Source: a virus. Taken from it: DNA of 33,420 nucleotides. Below the pieces are notes generated by a model that was given only the letters and a program-made list of their open reading frames with translations, was not told where the DNA came from and made no database searches. The position numbers were made by a program, and so were the translations under genes. Positions 6,668-33,420 of this stretch are shown piece by piece. The stretch is taken from positions 1-33,420 of the IMG/VR virus record IMGVR_UViG_3300045934_000081; one strand, 5' to 3'. The first letter of the stretch is position 1. Each line of letters begins with the position of its first letter.

Positions 6668-7852
6668 TTACTCCTGCGTCAGTGAGTCCAAGTGATCGGC
6701 CCAGCGCTGTAGCATTTCCTTGCGCTGGGGCAGCAGGTGTGCACGATTGTACACGCCTTTGACGCCCGGCACTGCGTGCGCCAGTGCCATTTCGATAACG
6801 TCGCTCGATTCTCCCATTTCATGCAGCAGCGTGCTTGCCGACGCTCGGAAGCCATGCGGCTGCTGCACACCTGCGAGGCCCGCGGCCTTGAGGCCCGAGC
6901 GTAGGGTGCTGTCGCTGACTTTCGCGAACACTCGCGCATCGGCTGCCGGCTCGCTCGCTCCGCGCAGCTCGCGCAGCATGGCCACCACTTGCGTGGGCAT
7001 CGGTATGACGTGCTCTTTGCGCATTTTCGTGCGCTCGGCAGGCACGCGCCACATGCCGCCCTCCAGGTCAATCTCGCCCCAGGTGGCCAAGCACAGCTCA
7101 TTAGGCCGCGGGAACACGGCGGCCAGTATGCGCAGCGCGATATGCACCGGGCGGGCGAGGCCGGCACGCTCGATGGCTTGGAGCACTCCGCGCATTGCAT
7201 CCTGAGTGGTGGCGCCGAGCCGGTGCTGTTTCGAGTGCTTGGGCTTGGGCAGCTTGACGGCCTGCGCCGGGTCGAATGGCACCAGGCTTGTGGCCATGGC
7301 GTGTGCGAACACATGACGCAGAGCTTGCAGGCCCTTTTTTGCGGTCTCATGCCCACGCTCAAGCACTGACTTGCTCGCCGCGTGCACGTCGGCTGCCGTG
7401 ATGTCGCGCACCGGCTTGCCTGTGCCGATGGCGGCCACGTAGTAACCCAGGGCGCGGCTGTATGCGTCGCGGGTGCCGGCGCTCAGTTTGTGCTCATCGG
7501 CGTACTGCGCATACGTGCCCGGCGCGTAGTCACCGAGCAGCACCGCGCGCATGGCCTCGACCACTGCCTGTTTGCGCATGGCTGACGGGTCGATGCCCTG
7601 GGCGAGCTGCCGGCGCATGTCGATGTGGCGCTCGCGCGCCTCGGACAGCGTGACGGTCGGGTACTCGCCAAGCCCCAGCATGTTGGCACGGCCGTTGAAA
7701 CGGTAGCGGTAGTACCAGGAGCGTGCGCCAGTGGGCGACACGCGCAGCGCGAGGCCGCGGCCGTCGGCTACCAGGTAGGGGCGGCCCAGGGGCTTGCTCG
7801 CGCGTATTTTGGCGTCGGTCAGTTTCATGGCTATGTGTCCGGTGGTATTCAT
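6668..7852 (-). CDS. int: Tyrosine integrase, P4 type
   Basis: This 394-residue site-specific recombinase would integrate the phage genome into the host chromosome. The N-terminus has the DUF4102-type arm-binding domain: KLTDAKIRASKP (10-21), LVADGRGLALRVSPTGARSWYYRYRF, and an LGLGEYPTVTLSEAR segment. A SAM-like core-binding domain follows (about 105-200). The catalytic set is complete: R249 in VFPRPNEL, K276, H333 and R336 in HGFR, H359 in LAHAVP, and the nucleophile Y368 in GVYNRA. The usual family ending, RKEMLQRWADHLD, is present. The start at 7852 is the first ATG; the ATG at 7828 (MKLTDAK) is equally plausible. The gene lies behind a promoter region with a perfect CRP-type palindrome. 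No tRNA 3' end is visible beside it, so the attachment core is not located. Confidence 0.93.
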   Translation of the reverse strand: MNTTGHIAMKLTDAKIRASKPLGRPYLVADGRGLALRVSPTGARSWYYRYRFNGRANMLGLGEYPTVTLSEARERHIDMRRQLAQGIDPSAMRKQAVVEAMRAVLLGDYAPGTYAQYADEHKLSAGTRDAYSRALGYYVAAIGTGKPVRDITAADVHAASKSVLERGHETAKKGLQALRHVFAHAMATSLVPFDPAQAVKLPKPKHSKQHRLGATTQDAMRGVLQAIERAGLARPVHIALRILAAVFPRPNELCLATWGEIDLEGGMWRVPAERTKMRKEHVIPMPTQVVAMLRELRGASEPAADARVFAKVSDSTLRSGLKAAGLAGVQQPHGFRASASTLLHEMGESSDVIEMALAHAVPGVKGVYNRAHLLPQRKEMLQRWADHLDSLTQE

Positions 7853-9453: not shown

Positions 9454-9497
9454 TGTGACCTGGCACACAGTCTAGCTTACTCACAGCGTTACTCACA
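9454..9497 (-). promoter_or_regulatory. Control site of the 9428 operon: CRP-like box and tandem TGTGAGTAA repeats
   Basis: TGTGA at 9454-9458, six bases, then ACACA at 9465-9469 is one base short of the CRP consensus. Two copies of TTACTCACA (TGTGAGTAA on the coding strand) follow at 9477-9485 and 9489-9497, 12 bp apart. The same two elements in the same order lie upstream of int. The site is 26-69 bases before the start at 9428, a normal promoter distance. A shared host regulator, plus a phage protein that binds the 9-mer, is the simplest reading. Confidence 0.55.
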
Positions 9498-9513: not shown

Positions 9514-9614
9514 TGCACCCCCATGCACCCACCTGCACCCTATTATTTTGTCTCCTAGCTAGGCAGGCCGCCCGAGCCGCACCTGGTGCACCCCCATGCA
9601 CCCACCTGCACCCT
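9514..9614 (+). repeat. Two triplets of TGCACCC at 10-bp steps (right array)
   Basis: TGCACCC starts at 9514, 9524, 9534 and again at 9587, 9597, 9607. The two groups are contained in a perfect 28-bp direct repeat (9514-9541 and 9587-9614) offset by 73 bp. On the minus strand the unit is GGGTGCA, the heptamer of the left array (608-697). Here too an AT-rich stretch (9541-9550) borders one group. The array lies in a gene-free region just upstream of the 9428 operon. It fits an origin or an operator read by a multimeric protein. Confidence 0.9.
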
Positions 9615-9692: not shown

Positions 9693-9891
9693 GGGTGTTA
9701 CTCACACCGTTACGCACAGCCTTGCGGCTGTGACGCAGTGCCCAGCTCAAGCCCCGCAGAGCCTGGCAGCCCACGCAATAGCAGGTGTACGCCAAGGCGG
9801 CCACCAGGAGCAGCGTAAATGCGTAGGGCAGCAGCAGCAGCGTCAGCACGATGACGGCAGCCCCCAGGAGAATGGCGCCTATTACCGCCAT
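9682..9891 (-). CDS. Small membrane protein with one long or two short hydrophobic segments
   Basis: This 69-residue protein is almost entirely hydrophobic over residues 2-42 (VIGAILLGAAVIVLTLLLLP and AFTLLLVAALAYTCYC), enough for a hairpin of two membrane helices, followed by a basic tail (RHSRKAVRN). The ATG at 9891 lies just inside the end of the preceding gene; the 17-residue longer frame up to 9942 would be largely overlapping. The protein is last in the string that contains the holin-like gene, so a second holin, pinholin or antiholin is possible. No family match is clear. Confidence 0.6.
   Translation of the reverse strand: MAVIGAILLGAAVIVLTLLLLPYAFTLLLVAALAYTCYCVGCQALRGLSWALRHSRKAVRNGVSNTQGR
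9698..9719 (-). repeat. Second tandem pair of the TGTGNGTAA repeat
   Basis: TTACTCACA at 9698-9706 and TTACGCACA at 9710-9718 are 12 bp apart, the same period as the pair at 9477-9497. They lie inside the last codons of the small membrane-protein gene. Five copies of TTAC(T/G)CACA in one orientation within about 1.8 kb are far more than chance for a 9-mer. They may be operator or arm-type recombinase sites. Confidence 0.6.
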
Positions 9892-10307: not shown

Positions 10308-10508
10308 TTACTTTTTTTCCTTTGCCTTGCGCATCAGCTCTGCGATGGCTCGCAGGTCATACCGCGGCGCGTTTGTGCCGGCCGGTGATGGCACCGGACC
10401 TGGCAAGAGCCCGGCCTTAATTCGGCGCCGCACAGTCCACCGGGACAGCCCGAGCATGCGGGCAACGTCACCGAGACTGCCATAGTGCACCGGCAGCTCA
10501 TCGGTCAT
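10308..10508 (-). CDS. Small helix-turn-helix protein, excisionase/AlpA-like
   Basis: This 66-residue protein has a winged-helix MerR/Xis-like layout: SLGDVARMLGLSRWTVRRRIKAGLLPGPVP (11-40) is a helix-turn-helix with the WTVRRRI recognition helix and following turn, then APRYDLRAIAELMRKAKEKK with the DLRAI helix typical of AlpA/excisionase-like proteins. It could be the excisionase partner of the integrase, a regulator of the repeats near 9.5 kb, or both. It overlaps the preceding gene as ATGA. It is the only small DNA-binding protein close to the control region, and I find no CI/Cro-like repressor anywhere. Confidence 0.75.
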   Translation of the reverse strand: MTDELPVHYGSLGDVARMLGLSRWTVRRRIKAGLLPGPVPSPAGTNAPRYDLRAIAELMRKAKEKK

Positions 10509-12360: not shown

Positions 12361-13290
12361 TCACCGCTCGTCGGGGGGCACCCACAGCGGCACCGTCGGC
12401 ATGGCCAGGTGCGTGGCGTACTCCTGCGCGGCGCTCTGCATGGCCTCAAGCGGCAAGCAGTCGCAGAGCCACACAAGGCGCGCAGTCTCCAGCGCAATGG
12501 CGCGCGGGTCGGGGTGGCCGGCGTCGGCGTATGCGTTGACTGTTTCGGCCCACAGCTCCAGCTCGCTGGCCTCGGGGCCGAGCGCAGCCAGCCGACGGCC
12601 GGCCTTAGTGGCACCGATGCCCTTTACGCCCGCAATGCCGTCGGTGCTGTCACCAGCGATGGCCTGACAGTAAAACCACAGCACGGCGTCACGATGCTCG
12701 ATGCGTCGGGGCATGTCATCGAAGCTATGATGCACTCCAGGCACTTGCGCCAGGTCTTTGTCGATTGACGCGATAACGTAAAACCGGCCGGCCTCGCGGA
12801 GCTGCGCGGCTCGGGTAGCGAGCACGTCATCGGGCTCGCACCAGTGCACCATGCGCGCGCCCAGCTCATCAATGGCATACTTTCGCAGCGTGCCGAAGTG
12901 CTGGGGCTTGGCTGCCTCGACTCGATTCCACTTGTACCGCGCGCGGCGTGCTATGACTTCGCGATAATTGCCGTAGCCTGACACGTACAGCTCATGCTCA
13001 TGCTGCGGGTACTGGTTGAGCAGGAACGTGAGCCGCTGCGTAAGCTCGTGCACGGCGTGCTCGACGGGCAGCAGGATATTGCGGGAAAAAATGCGCGGCG
13101 CATCGAAGCCCAATGCTTGGGAGCGGGCCTTGTTGGCCTCGCCCCATGTGGTGTAGAGCGTGGCCACTGCCCGGCGCGACTCATCAATGGTGCCGCTCAC
13201 CAGGGCGTACTCGCTCAACTGCGCCGCGCCAGCTGCCGCATACAGCATGCTGTCGATGTCAACCAAGAGCACAGCTCGGGCCTGACTCAC
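12361..13290 (-). CDS. 5'-3' exonuclease (FEN / T7 gp6-like)
   Basis: This 309-residue protein has the layout of phage flap/5'-3' exonucleases. LLVDIDSMLY (8-17) carries the first acidic residues. The arginine/lysine arch region is REVIARRARYKWNR (110-123). CEPDDVLA (151-158) and ASIDKDLAQVPG (174-185) supply further metal ligands, and AGDSTDGIAGVKGIGATKA (212-230) gives the last acids plus the helix-hairpin-helix that grips DNA. It would remove RNA primers or degrade host DNA, working with the family A polymerase two genes upstream, which has no 5'-nuclease domain of its own. It overlaps the preceding gene by four bases. Confidence 0.9.
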   Translation of the reverse strand: MSQARAVLLVDIDSMLYAAAGAAQLSEYALVSGTIDESRRAVATLYTTWGEANKARSQALGFDAPRIFSRNILLPVEHAVHELTQRLTFLLNQYPQHEHELYVSGYGNYREVIARRARYKWNRVEAAKPQHFGTLRKYAIDELGARMVHWCEPDDVLATRAAQLREAGRFYVIASIDKDLAQVPGVHHSFDDMPRRIEHRDAVLWFYCQAIAGDSTDGIAGVKGIGATKAGRRLAALGPEASELELWAETVNAYADAGHPDPRAIALETARLVWLCDCLPLEAMQSAAQEYATHLAMPTVPLWVPPDER

Positions 13291-29880: not shown

Positions 29881-30774
29881 CTACTCCCAAAGCATCGCCA
29901 TGCGCAGCTCGGTATTTACGCCAGTCTGCGCGCTGAAATTTCCTGAGCGCTCGTGCATCACCAGGAACGTGCGAGCGGTAGCGCCGACCATCGCCACAGA
30001 GAACGTGCTGCCCTCAGCCGCCTCGGTCTCACGCACTCCGCACACGTAAGCAAGCGGCTCGACGCGCGGCGTGATTGTGTACCCGAGCATAGCTTGCGGG
30101 TCAGAGCCTACCACCGTCGAGCTTTGTGCCTGCGGATTCATGCCCAGCGCTGCGTCGGTGATATTGGTCTGCGCAGTATATGCCGCGGCCGGCGACGCGT
30201 ACCTAAACGCCTGCCGCTTGGTCAATGAGCTGTTGATGCCTGAGCCCCAGTGCGCCATCGCGCCCACAGCGGTGGGCTCGCCGTCGGCGTCGCAGGTGCG
30301 GCAAATAAAGAATGAGCCGACGTTGGCGTTACCGTCCTGTACTTTCCAATTCAGCCCAAAAAAGCCCTCATTGGCGGAAAAGTAAGATTGCTTAGCAGTG
30401 TCAGAAGTCTCGCCGACGCCGAAGGTTGCGATGTTTGCGATTGTGCTCAGAGCTGTGCCGCCTAGAACGCCTGAGCCGTTTGTGCTCGTGCCCACTGTCA
30501 CCTGCACACGCGGGTTAGTTGCGCCGCCGGCTGTGCCGAATCCAAAACGAATGTAAATAGGCGCAGTGCCGTGCAATGCGTCATTCAGGTGGAACACTGC
30601 GTAGCCACCCTCGGTATTTGAGCCGGGGCGAGCGCCTGCGCCGGGGGTTATGTTTGTCTCATCGGCGGCAAGCTCAGTAAGAGCACCGAGCCGGGTTATA
30701 AACTCGTCACGCCATTCCTGCCACGTCGCGTCAGAGTCGTGACGTACTCGCGTGCTCCAGCTCTGTGTGCTCAT
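29881..30774 (-). CDS. Putative virion structural protein
   Basis: This 297-residue protein is Gly/Ala/Thr/Ser-rich with few Cys and looks like a beta-rich structural protein: YAVFHLNDALHGTAPIYIRFGFGTAGG, NPRVQVTVGTSTNGSG, FFGLNWKVQDGNANVGSFFICRTC, MLGYTITPRVEPLAYVCGVRE and the final FLVMHERSGNFSAQTGVNTELRMAMLWE. The N-terminus is helical (TWQEWRDEFITRLGALTEL). Similar proteins appear beside fibre-like genes in proteobacterial phages, often without a function. Placed immediately before the fibre-like protein, it may form a partner adhesin, a head fibre base or a decoration protein. No enzyme motif is seen. Confidence 0.6.
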   Translation of the reverse strand: MSTQSWSTRVRHDSDATWQEWRDEFITRLGALTELAADETNITPGAGARPGSNTEGGYAVFHLNDALHGTAPIYIRFGFGTAGGATNPRVQVTVGTSTNGSGVLGGTALSTIANIATFGVGETSDTAKQSYFSANEGFFGLNWKVQDGNANVGSFFICRTCDADGEPTAVGAMAHWGSGINSSLTKRQAFRYASPAAAYTAQTNITDAALGMNPQAQSSTVVGSDPQAMLGYTITPRVEPLAYVCGVRETEAAEGSTFSVAMVGATARTFLVMHERSGNFSAQTGVNTELRMAMLWE

Positions 30775-30781
30775 GCTTGCA

Positions 30782-32389
30782 TCATCCTAGTATGACCTTT
30801 GCCCCTGACTCGTTTTCGGCGATACCGCGGGCCATTGTCAGTGCCACCATGCCGTCGATTCTGCCGCGGCTGCGCTGCTTGTCTAGCTTGCGGTTGTTCG
30901 CATCGGTGCCGGTGACTCTCGCATTTGCCGAGCACATAGTCAACACGGGGTGCTTACCATGGGCAAGGCGCCCATTTAGGGCGTCGGTCTCCAGCACCCG
31001 CAAGGCCGGCGACATGCTTGCTGTGCCTTGGCCAAACGGCAGGAAACGGGTGTCAATTTGATGCTGGGAAAAGCCCGCAACCTTGAGCCACGGGCGCAGG
31101 TGCGGCATGGCCCAGCGGTCGAATGCGCACATAAACTGGTTGCGGCGCCACAGCCCAAACAGCCAGGCGGCCACGTAGCTATACTCGATGGCCTTGCCTG
31201 GCGTGGTGAGCAGGTGGCCTTGCTCGTGCCACACCGCATAAGGCGCTCGGTCACGCAGCCCGCGCTCGCGCAGCGGGGGCTCACTCGGCAGCCAGAATGT
31301 CGGCAGCACTTGCCACACGCCGAGCAGGTCATAAATGGCGACGCACGCAGTTAGGTCAGCGACTGCCGACAAGTCGAGGCCCAGGAATAATTTTGTACCG
31401 GGCGGCGCCGCCTTCGGCGCGGCGCCACAACTGTCCCACACTTCCCGCGCGATAAATGGCACCGTTGCATCGGTGCGCTGATTCAGCACTAGGTTGCGAT
31501 AGGATGCAGCGGCCGACGGTGAACGCTTAGCCTTGTCGGCTTGCAGTCGCAGCTCGGTTATATTCTGCGTGCCCTCATGCATGTCGGGATACGCGAGCTG
31601 CAATGCCTCATCGCTGTACAGGTCGATGGGTGAGCCGTCGGCGCGTTTTTCCGGGCAGTATTCGAGCATGATGACCGTATCGGGTGACGGGCTTTCTTGC
31701 GCGGTGTCGATGATTTGCGATAGCAAGTCTGCGTCACTCGCGGCCTGCGTGGAAATGATGAGCGACAGCGGGCGCTCTTGCGCCAGCGTCGCAGTCTCCA
31801 GCGCGTCATACAGCTCGCTGGTCGGCCCTTTCACTTGCCCCAGCTCATCATGCACCAGGAAACACGGCCCGAGACCGTATTTAGTTTTGGCCTCTTTTGA
31901 CAGCGCCTTGTAGGTGGTGCCCAGCTCGGTGCAGTGTATTTCCTTGCGGCTCGACCGCACCGTGCACCATGCGTCAAGCTCGGGCGACATGCGAAGCATT
32001 TGCTCGGCGTACTTGTAGACTATGGCGGCCTGGTCACGCGACTGCGCGGAGCTGTACAGCTCACCGTTTCGCACGGCCTCGGGGCCGACCAAGTGCAGCA
32101 GCACGAGCATGGCGGCGAATGGCGTTTTGCCACGCTTGCGCGCGATGCTAATGACTGCGGTGCGCACGTAACCCTCATCAGGGTAAGCAGCATGCATGAA
32201 GCGCCGCTGCCACATGCGCAACCTGAGACGGCGGCCGACATGCTTGCCGCCGGGCACGCGCAGGTGTCGCTCAATCCACTCGACGTTGCGCAGAGCCCGA
32301 GCCGATACGCGCACATCGGCCGGCAGCGAGCACAGCGAGCGCTCGGCCTGCTGGGCCTCGGTCTCGGTCACTGGCGTGGTGCTTTCCAT
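30782..32389 (-). CDS. terL: Terminase large subunit, HK97/P27-associated type
   Basis: This 535-residue packaging motor has an N-terminal ATPase and a C-terminal nuclease. Walker A is SIARKRGKT (96-104, the 'aRK.GKT' variant). Walker B is CFLVHDELGQ (about 180-189), followed by the coupling segment LSLIISTQA. The RNase H-like nuclease shows LFLGLDLSAVADLTA (first Asp) and RGRIDGMVALTMA (last Asp). The N-terminal LRLRMWQRRFMH matches the adenine-binding region of the family. It cuts concatemeric DNA and pumps it through the portal. It overlaps the HTH gene by 22 bases and its ATG has an AGGA element close upstream. Confidence 0.93.
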   Translation of the reverse strand: MESTTPVTETEAQQAERSLCSLPADVRVSARALRNVEWIERHLRVPGGKHVGRRLRLRMWQRRFMHAAYPDEGYVRTAVISIARKRGKTPFAAMLVLLHLVGPEAVRNGELYSSAQSRDQAAIVYKYAEQMLRMSPELDAWCTVRSSRKEIHCTELGTTYKALSKEAKTKYGLGPCFLVHDELGQVKGPTSELYDALETATLAQERPLSLIISTQAASDADLLSQIIDTAQESPSPDTVIMLEYCPEKRADGSPIDLYSDEALQLAYPDMHEGTQNITELRLQADKAKRSPSAAASYRNLVLNQRTDATVPFIAREVWDSCGAAPKAAPPGTKLFLGLDLSAVADLTACVAIYDLLGVWQVLPTFWLPSEPPLRERGLRDRAPYAVWHEQGHLLTTPGKAIEYSYVAAWLFGLWRRNQFMCAFDRWAMPHLRPWLKVAGFSQHQIDTRFLPFGQGTASMSPALRVLETDALNGRLAHGKHPVLTMCSANARVTGTDANNRKLDKQRSRGRIDGMVALTMARGIAENESGAKVILG

Positions 32390-32649
32390 GTCCTAAGCAG
32401 CTCGGCTAGTTGCTGGGTCAGCGCATCATGCTTGCGGTGCCGCTCGCGCCAGTACACCACAGTCGGGCTTGCGCCTTGCGGCTCGGCCGCCGGCTGGTCA
32501 AGCTCTGCCCTCGCCCTGGCCAGCAGGCGCCCCATGGTCACTTTAGTGATGCCATGCTTGCGGGCGAGGGCCGCGGCGTTGCGGCCAGTCCTAAGCCATT
32601 CAGAGTATAGCGCACGCCTGCGCTTGCGTTGCTGCTCGCGCGTTGCCAT
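32368..32649 (-). CDS. Small helix-turn-helix protein between TerS and TerL
   Basis: This 93-residue protein has a basic N-terminus (TREQQRKRRRALYSEWLRTG) and a helix-turn-helix, NAAALARKHGITKVTMGRLLARARAEL (24-50), with 'ITKVTMGRLL' as the recognition helix. A second helical region with WRERHRKHDALTQQLAELLRTW follows. It overlaps TerS as TGATG and TerL by 22 bases. The usual arrangement has nothing between TerS and TerL, so it may be an accessory DNA-recognition subunit or a regulator of head genes. TerS of the P27 type is already present upstream. Confidence 0.7.
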   Translation of the reverse strand: MATREQQRKRRRALYSEWLRTGRNAAALARKHGITKVTMGRLLARARAELDQPAAEPQGASPTVVYWRERHRKHDALTQQLAELLRTWKAPRQ

Positions 32650-33077
32650 CAGTCGGCCGCGTCATTCTCGGGTTGCTCCCACGGTGGCACGAGCTTGCCG
32701 CCGGGGGCCTCACGGTCATTTGTGCGTGAGCGGCTGGCCTGGTGCGTCAGGCGCATTTTAGTCGCCAGGGACAGAGCCGCGCGCGCCTCGCGCTCGCGCA
32801 GCGCGCACAGGTCGCTCAGCCACTCCAGGTTGACACCGACGGCCTGGGGCTGGCCCAGCTCTGCCTCGGCCTGGCGTATGCGCACTTGCAGCAGGCGCCA
32901 GGTCACCACATGCGCACAGTACATGGCGAGCGTCGCCCGGTGCCGCTGCTGCCACCAGTCGGCTGGCGTGCCGTCGATGACTTCGCGCCACACTTCCAGC
33001 TCGGCCGGCGTCAGGCCATCCGGCGCCGTCATGTCGGCGACGGGCTTGCCCGGCTGCCGGCCGCTGCCCCTAGCCAC
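32649..33077 (-). CDS. terS: Terminase small subunit, P27 type
   Basis: This 142-residue protein matches the P27 family: LTPAELEVWREVIDGTPADWWQQRHRATLAMYCAHVVTWRLL (22-63, with 'E...W..v......w......L..yc') and the end ALREREARAALSLATKMRLTHQASRSRTNDR (91-121, 'sLatkLrlT..sr'). The small subunit recognises the phage genome end and hands it to TerL. The start is a GTG at 33077 that overlaps the stop of the small basic gene. The final 25 residues are acidic and proline-rich. Good match in both sequence and place. Confidence 0.88.
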   Translation of the reverse strand: MARGSGRQPGKPVADMTAPDGLTPAELEVWREVIDGTPADWWQQRHRATLAMYCAHVVTWRLLQVRIRQAEAELGQPQAVGVNLEWLSDLCALREREARAALSLATKMRLTHQASRSRTNDREAPGGKLVPPWEQPENDAAD

Positions 33078-33291
33078 CGCGCAGAGCCCCGCGGACTCGG
33101 CCGGCCAGCTGCCGCGCCCTGCCCAGCCAGGTCATGCGCTCGGGCGGCTGCGGTGGTGGTGGGGTGGCCGCTCGGTCCATGGCCGCGCGCAGAGCCTCGG
33201 CATAGGACTGCCGCCCCTGCTTGGCCCGGCGCCTGGCCTTGCCCTTGTTTTTGCTCGGCTTGCCCTTGGTACCGCTCACACGCTTGCCCAT
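33070..33291 (-). CDS. Small basic protein, first gene of the late operon
   Basis: This 73-residue protein is extremely basic: KRVSGTKGKPSKNKGKARRRAKQGRQS (3-29), then a short helix YAEALRAAMDRAA, a polyproline stretch (PPPPQPP) and a final basic RLAGRVRGALRGG-like end (QLAGRVRGALRGG). It likely binds DNA or RNA. The ATG at 33291 has a perfect GGAGG nine to ten bases upstream, and the stop overlaps TerS. It is the first gene behind the LexA-like boxes. A competing frame, 33029-33406, has no ribosome binding site and lies through the promoter, so I reject it. Confidence 0.7.
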   Translation of the reverse strand: MGKRVSGTKGKPSKNKGKARRRAKQGRQSYAEALRAAMDRAATPPPPQPPERMTWLGRARQLAGRVRGALRGG

Positions 33292-33309
33292 GCTCTGTGC
33301 CCTCCATAG

Positions 33310-33349
33310 TGCTGTATGCCTGTACAGGATACTGTAAGGATTTCCAGCA
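33310..33349 (-). promoter_or_regulatory. Two abutting LexA-like (SOS) boxes
   Basis: Positions 33312-33327 read CTGT-N8-ACAG, exact for the enterobacterial LexA consensus, inside TGCTGTATGCCTGTACAGGA (33310-33329). The next 20 bases, TACTGTAAGGATTTCCAGCA (33330-33349), give CTGT-N8-CCAG with a perfect left half, like the known uvrB box type. Two boxes 20 bp apart imitate the E. coli lexA operator. They lie 19-58 bases upstream of the first late gene and cover the predicted -10 and start site. Confidence 0.65.
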
Positions 33350-33360
33350 CATATTGTAAA
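33331..33360 (-). promoter_or_regulatory. Predicted sigma-70 promoter of the late operon
   Basis: On the minus strand TTTACA (33360-33355) fits the -35 box in five of six bases, and TACAGT (33336-33331) fits the -10 in four of six, with an 18-bp spacer. Transcription would start near 33324, inside the first LexA-like box, about 33 bases before the ATG at 33291. Moderate by sequence alone; the overlap with the boxes strengthens it. Confidence 0.5.
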
Positions 33361-33394
33361 GTGTTCCGACAGTCCACTGTAAAGAATCCCGACA
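33332..33394 (+). repeat. Three imperfect 18-bp direct repeats at 22-23 bp spacing
   Basis: Copies lie at 33332-33349, 33354-33371 and 33377-33394. The last two share TGTAAAG and CCGACA, and the first matches with TGTAAGG and CCAGCA. Spacing of 22 and 23 bp is close to two helical turns. They precede the late-operon genes and would flank the HNH/cos side in a circle. Likely operators or terminase recognition sites; the first copy overlaps the second LexA-like box. Confidence 0.6.
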
Positions 33395-33420
33395 CTTTTG
33401 TGCCAATGGCCGCGATTGCT

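Follow-up and report, generated by a model that had tools for sequence, protein, structure and literature searches.

Genomic context of the packaging operon

The locus examined here raises the question of what controls the packaging and head genes of a tailed phage whose terminase genes begin close to one end of the record. We analysed the whole of IMG/VR virus record IMGVR_UViG_3300045934_000081 (33,420 nucleotides; hereafter referred to as the window). The answer to which we give about an even chance, judging from sequence comparisons, is that the packaging operon lies behind sites for host regulators, namely a PrsR-type repeat array and one LexA-like operator.

Every gene given a function was encoded on the minus strand. 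Behind a 129-base gap (33292-33420), the genes encoded a basic 73-aa protein without a Pfam match (33070-33291), the terminase small subunit (TerS; 32649-33077; PHROG 12559, E 3e-20), a helical 93-aa protein (32368-32649), the terminase large subunit (TerL; 30782-32389; PHROG 9, E 3e-95), the portal protein, and head and tail proteins. The 93-aa protein weakly resembled Mor/helix-turn-helix proteins (Mor, 17.6 bits, below the cut-off), and its structural model (pLDDT 65) gave no significant fold match. Beyond the head and tail genes were genes for a PolA-type polymerase, a helicase, and an integrase, with an HNH gene at the opposite end, an arrangement that we take to be HK97-like. The integrase reported in the initial annotation was confirmed as a tyrosine integrase (6668-7852; PHROG 1, E 1e-56). 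Its identity was at most 38% among the phage and plasmid matches listed, outside of which one plasmid record fell in the 60-80% band, and a search for a tRNA-like attP fragment gave nothing.

The window had a single close relative, a 93% identical contig (L003), in which the 73-aa protein and TerS were each 92% identical and the coding sequence of the first gene was identical at 203 of 222 positions. The end of the record (33395-33420) may be a physical, cos-type genome end, because position 33420 of the window and position 1 of L003 coincide within 1-2 bases. An 18-mer scan for contigs spanning this end recovered only L003 together with L043 and L044, the latter two showing no further resemblance. 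The HNH gene at the far end of the window would likewise be in keeping with a cos-type end. One gene (29881-30774) was identical to that of L003 at 893 of 894 bases and the adjoining terminase-side genes at 79-91%, pointing to mosaicism or recent exchange. Elsewhere in the window, the heptamer GGGTGCA formed several runs with a period of exactly 10 bp in two intergenic gaps 9 kb apart (618-697 and 9514-9613); these runs may represent iterons or another operator. Paired TTACTCACA-like units formed a direct repeat at 9477-9497 and 9698-9718, 221 bp apart.

The single sigma70-like promoter called in the gap (33331-33360, minus strand) was a consensus match at 9 of 12 positions, with the -35 element TTTACA (33360-33355) and the -10 element TACAGT (33336-33331) separated by 18 bases. 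No sigma-54 -24/-12 site matching at 10 or more of 11 positions was found in the window, and even a threshold of 8 gave none within 300 bases of the array described below.

A repeat array matching bacterial PEP-CTERM motif 1

The strongest feature of the region is a repeat array that was absent from the initial annotation. Three copies of a 17-bp direct repeat, with spacings of 22 and 23, occupied 33333-33394 on the minus strand. Site 1 (TGTCGGGATTCTTTACA; 33378-33394) and site 2 (TGTCGGAACACTTTACA; 33355-33371), the latter containing the predicted -35 element, were perfect motif-1 sites, that is, predicted PrsR sites (TGTCGG-N5-TTTACA, 0 mismatches). Site 3 (TGCTGGAAATCCTTACA; 33333-33349) was a degenerate copy. 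Beyond sites 1 and 2, no TGTCGG-N5-TTTACA with up to 2 mismatches was present anywhere in the window.

In the alignment with L003, identical columns numbered 20/20 in the leader, 16/17 in site 3, 15/18 in site 1, and 13/17 in site 2, and neither site 1 nor site 2 of L003 fitted motif 1 at one mismatch or fewer. By these counts, which concern one relative only, the leader and the LexA-like box are the best-kept part of the region; the weaker conservation of sites 1 and 2 counts against control by a host regulator.

The first half of motif 1 as used here, TGTCGG, was taken from the window's copies; the text of the published description considered next lacks the full logo letters. Motif 1 was described as a 17-nt sequence ending in TTTACA, sometimes repeated, that precedes proteobacterial PEP-CTERM genes and is followed after 32-92 nt by motif 2, a sigma-54 -24/-12 site, with PrsR proposed as its reader (Haft et al., 2006; PMC1569441). 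The window contains a repeated 17-nt site with this ending, but motif 2 and a PEP-CTERM gene were absent and a terminase operon was found downstream instead. In Aquincola, one PEP-CTERM gene was confirmed to depend on RpoN, but PrsR binding was not confirmed (PMC9850573); the binding of PrsR to motif 1 is therefore still a published prediction (PMC1569441), a further point against the host-regulator reading.

Tandem pairs of the window's motif were sought in 84,980 species genomes, and 5 bacterial loci were obtained, compared with about 0.02 expected. At three of the five (L014, L015, and L018), the adjacent gene carried a PEP-CTERM domain over the cut-off; L017 gave PEP-CTERM family matches that were all under the cut-offs, and the one protein tested at L016 gave none. 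PrsR (TIGR02915) exceeded the curated cut-off in all five genomes with a motif pair and in none of 14 control genomes. We also compared 13 chromosomal or PEP-CTERM-linked sites with 24 sites from phage arrays at two positions that the search had left free. The base before TTTACA was C or T in 12/13 host sites and 22/24 phage-array sites, and the base after it was C or G in 13/13 and 23/24, respectively. An origin of the repeats as transposon (IS21) ends was discarded: inspection of the ORF lists by eye showed phage structural or PEP-CTERM genes and no transposase at the array loci.

Motif-1 and sigma-54 arrays in other viral contigs

A pattern built from the window's copies matched three viral contigs. 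Tandem motif-1 pairs (no more than 33 bases apart) were present in 10 viral stretches representing 8 independent groups besides the window and L003, whereas the reversed-motif control gave 0 pairs in viral contigs. Within each phage record the motif-1 sites fell into one tight cluster or two only, with 11 of 12 records matched and L003 giving none at one mismatch or fewer.

In another phage of this set (L012/L013), four motif-1 sites were followed by 21 bases, the LexA core of TACTGTGTATATGTACAGTG, another 29 bases, and the likely ATG of a terminase gene belonging to PHROG 2, a family other than that of the window. Among the 8 independent arrays outside the window, an exact LexA box no more than 300 bases away was present here alone (0.08 expected). 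The recurrence of the order array, LexA box, terminase is suggestive in favour of a LexA operator, while the presence of an exact box near only 1 of 8 arrays speaks against the combined host-regulator reading.

No protein common to all array phages was found, nor a sigma-54 activator domain in any of them, and a host protein would therefore be the simplest reader of the arrays. A Fis-type helix-turn-helix occurred among the array phages only in the window, within a Cox/Xis-like protein. Promoters around the arrays were counted in nine records, of which three (G003, G004, and G009) entered only in part. Sigma-54 sites matching at 10 or more of 11 positions lay within 300 bases of the array in three of the nine (9 sites, compared with 0.096 expected), and sigma70 promoters matching at 11 of 12 positions lay within 150 bases in three of the nine (0.18 expected), one of which, G005, also had a sigma-54 site. 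The window had neither beside its array.

Several further layouts were observed. Twelve viral contigs in 10 groups (L022-L033) carried a full motif 1 with a sigma-54 promoter, which in L033 preceded a PEP-CTERM gene and in L028 adjoined a terminase gene. In L009 (480-620), the inverted repeats TTAGTG-CACTAA and TTAGTCGCCACTAA flanked the motif-1 array. The arrays of L007 (G002) (985-1118 and 1171-1308) were located in a long gap separating divergent replication and terminase genes, where six tandem sigma-54 sites, 26-27 bp apart on the minus strand, adjoined six motif-1 sites; no other such sigma-54 site was present in its 30.8 kb.

Tandem sigma-54 sites by themselves were abundant, with at least 120 viral stretches compared with roughly 2 expected for a collection assumed to be about 60 Gb. 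Of 119 such loci (L056-L174), 80 were analysed (L056-L135), and some proved to be coding repeats (a 15-bp period in L084 and L095, and a 24-bp group). The sites in these 80 loci were mostly 24-29 bp apart, with up to ten in a row (e.g., L100, 1964-2251; L075, 4811-4929). A PHROG 2 terminase match was obtained in 16 of the 23 sigma-54 array records searched; in 12 of these 16, constituting 7 independent groups, the array lay 0.57-1.8 kb upstream of the terminase gene, and 10 of the 12 pointed away from it. DnaA boxes (TTATCCACA) clustered near sigma-54 arrays (15 near and 2 elsewhere) at seven loci from about three independent groups (L064, L085, L096, L098, L102, L104, and L116).

Taken together with the motif-1 arrays, the sigma-54 arrays suggest that sites for host factors are preferentially placed next to terminase genes. 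A wider generalization can be offered only tentatively: unrelated phages may share a general device, a sensor or a decoy, in which tandem arrays of host sites (PrsR motif 1, sigma-54 -24/-12 sites, and in some cases LexA or DnaA boxes) adjoin the terminase genes and tie phage development to the host's sigma-54/exopolysaccharide programme or disarm that programme, with the window as the PrsR and LexA version. This broader reading deserves a dedicated survey.

That the array is a decoy seems to us unlikely, though this fares best among the rival explanations. The array would then titrate host PrsR (and elsewhere also sigma-54) during infection and so damp the surface-protein/exopolysaccharide programme, any effect on packaging being secondary. 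Such a role would suit the arrays that have no strong sigma-54 site nearby (the window, L008, and L012), the isolated juxtaposition of both site types in L007, and the abundance of sigma-54 arrays together with their prevailing orientation away from terL. However, three sites per phage copy would probably be few beside the many host sites, and several arrays were located directly at promoters, including the three of nine adjoining sigma70 promoters.

The LexA-like box at the predicted start of the operon

The sequence CTGTATGCCTGTACAG (33312-33327; no strand assigned) fits exactly the pattern CTGT-N8-ACAG, which we take to be the core of the E. coli-type LexA (SOS) operator. About 0.002 exact matches were expected in the 129-base gap and one was present, while the whole window had 2 compared with 0.51 expected, the other being at 12540 within an exonuclease gene (12361-13290). 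The box was situated just downstream of the predicted -10 element and 21 nt before the first ATG (33291). The initial annotation had placed an exact box at the predicted start of the head operon, and this was borne out: the box covers the likely start, and the packaging genes lie behind it. It had further described tandem LexA boxes, a description that held for this box alone. The adjoining CTGTAAGGATTTCCAG (33332-33347) had one mismatch, belonged to a class with 17 members in the window compared with 12.6 expected, and lay within array site 3, which accounts for most of it.

In L003, the single close relative, 15 of the 16 bases of the box were kept and both arms were intact. Against the extended E. 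coli-type consensus TACTGT-(AT)4-ACAGTA, hand counts gave 14/20 for the window's box and 17/20 for that of L012. A LexA-type operator over the packaging promoter is a plausible candidate, given the exact core, the arms intact in L003, and the better box TACTGTGTATATGTACAGTG in the unrelated L012/L013.

LexA would account for no more than one of two host inputs, as the array fits the PEP-CTERM/PrsR site and not LexA. A switch run by host LexA alone, which would repress the late promoter until SOS induction opens it, with the array incidental, would explain the well-placed exact box with its conserved arms and the failure to find a CI/LexA-type gene; we regard it as quite improbable, since the supposed second box is part of the repeat array, the array is far less probable by chance than the box and fits another regulator's site, and the phage encodes a Cox/Xis-like regulator.

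Candidate readers encoded by the phage

The initial annotation had found no CI/Cro-like gene. In agreement with this, HTH_3 and Peptidase_S24 gave 0 matches in the window, and no repressor emerged when 20 more small ORFs, taken from both strands, were scanned against Pfam. The window did, however, encode a 66-aa helix-turn-helix protein (10308-10508, minus strand), a Cox/Xis-like candidate regulator assigned to PHROG 66 (excisionase and transcriptional regulator). Its single-sequence model (pLDDT 78) gave weak fold matches (E 0.04-0.06), the best being to a DNA-binding protein of phage P2 (4lhf) and another to Pukovnik Xis. P2 Cox acts as both excisionase and repressor. A phage-encoded regulator is therefore likely to be present, so that the absence of a dedicated repressor cannot be granted.

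The 17-bp sites at intervals of 22-23 bp recall a lambda-like triple operator, which this helix-turn-helix protein, for example, might read as a phage repressor. That seems very unlikely, given that other array phages have the same site without such a protein and that the resemblance to the excisionase fold is weak (E 0.04). Least probable of all is that the repeats are cosB-like recognition sites of the terminase: the three direct repeats do precede TerS at 26-88 nt from what looks like a physical end, an arrangement seen in cos phages (PAJU2 layout), but the motif is common to bacterial promoters, preceding PEP-CTERM genes, and occurs at other positions in phages with other terminases, and sites 1 and 2 have drifted in L003 (15/18 and 13/17) despite its 92% identical TerS.

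Proposed control of the packaging operon and comparison with known systems

In the host-regulator reading that we favour, the gap would be the control region of the packaging and head operon of an HK97-type tailed phage, situated at the end of the genome that carries the terminase genes. Its array sites appear to belong to a type found ahead of surface-protein genes in PEP-CTERM/exosortase bacteria, which the NtrC-family response regulator PrsR is predicted to recognize. A host PrsR-type regulator would bind the array and adjust either the predicted sigma70 promoter or a promoter of the sigma-54 type lying past the end of the record, and host LexA on the downstream operator would hold the operon down until DNA damage. 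The array could activate such a sigma-54 promoter, repress or help the sigma70 promoter, or titrate PrsR. The sites, their identity with the host motif, their recurrence in unrelated phages, and their position before terminase genes were observed directly, whereas binding, the direction of its effect, and SOS induction are inferred. Against this reading, PrsR-type proteins act via sigma-54, yet the window has no sigma-54 site at 10 or more of 11 positions; it also presupposes PrsR and a LexA of E. coli-type specificity in the host.

Phages with structural genes under host LexA are already known, and in open-access PubMed Central texts we found no description of phages with biofilm or exopolysaccharide regulator sites before their packaging genes. 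The arrangement suggests a phage that would read the state of its host through the host's own regulators. If this is true, the decision to lyse bacteria that form flocs or biofilms, such as those of activated sludge and sediments, would be tied to what the matrix programme is doing, and searches for the motif would bring such phages to light and hint at their hosts.

In phage lambda, the R sites of cosB are direct repeats between the genome end and the terminase genes. The window likewise has repeats between its end and the terminase genes; they are candidate sites, and their motif is shared with bacterial promoters. CTXphi, a filamentous phage with a repressor of its own, uses LexA in its switch. 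Host LexA is proposed as a direct regulator in both CTXphi and the window, whereas the genes concerned differ. The lytic promoter P3 of GIL01 carries tandem LexA boxes, and the window resembles it in having a LexA-type box over a late, structural promoter; unlike GIL01 as described there, the window has one predicted box instead of a tandem, belongs to a tailed phage with an integrase, and bears an array for a second regulator (PMC6182141). Compared with the PEP-CTERM promoters described by Haft et al. (2006; PMC1569441), the window's array precedes packaging genes and is without the sigma-54 motif 2, but it shares with their motif 1 a repeated 17-nt site ending in TTTACA, and its free-base preferences are those of the bacterial sites found here.
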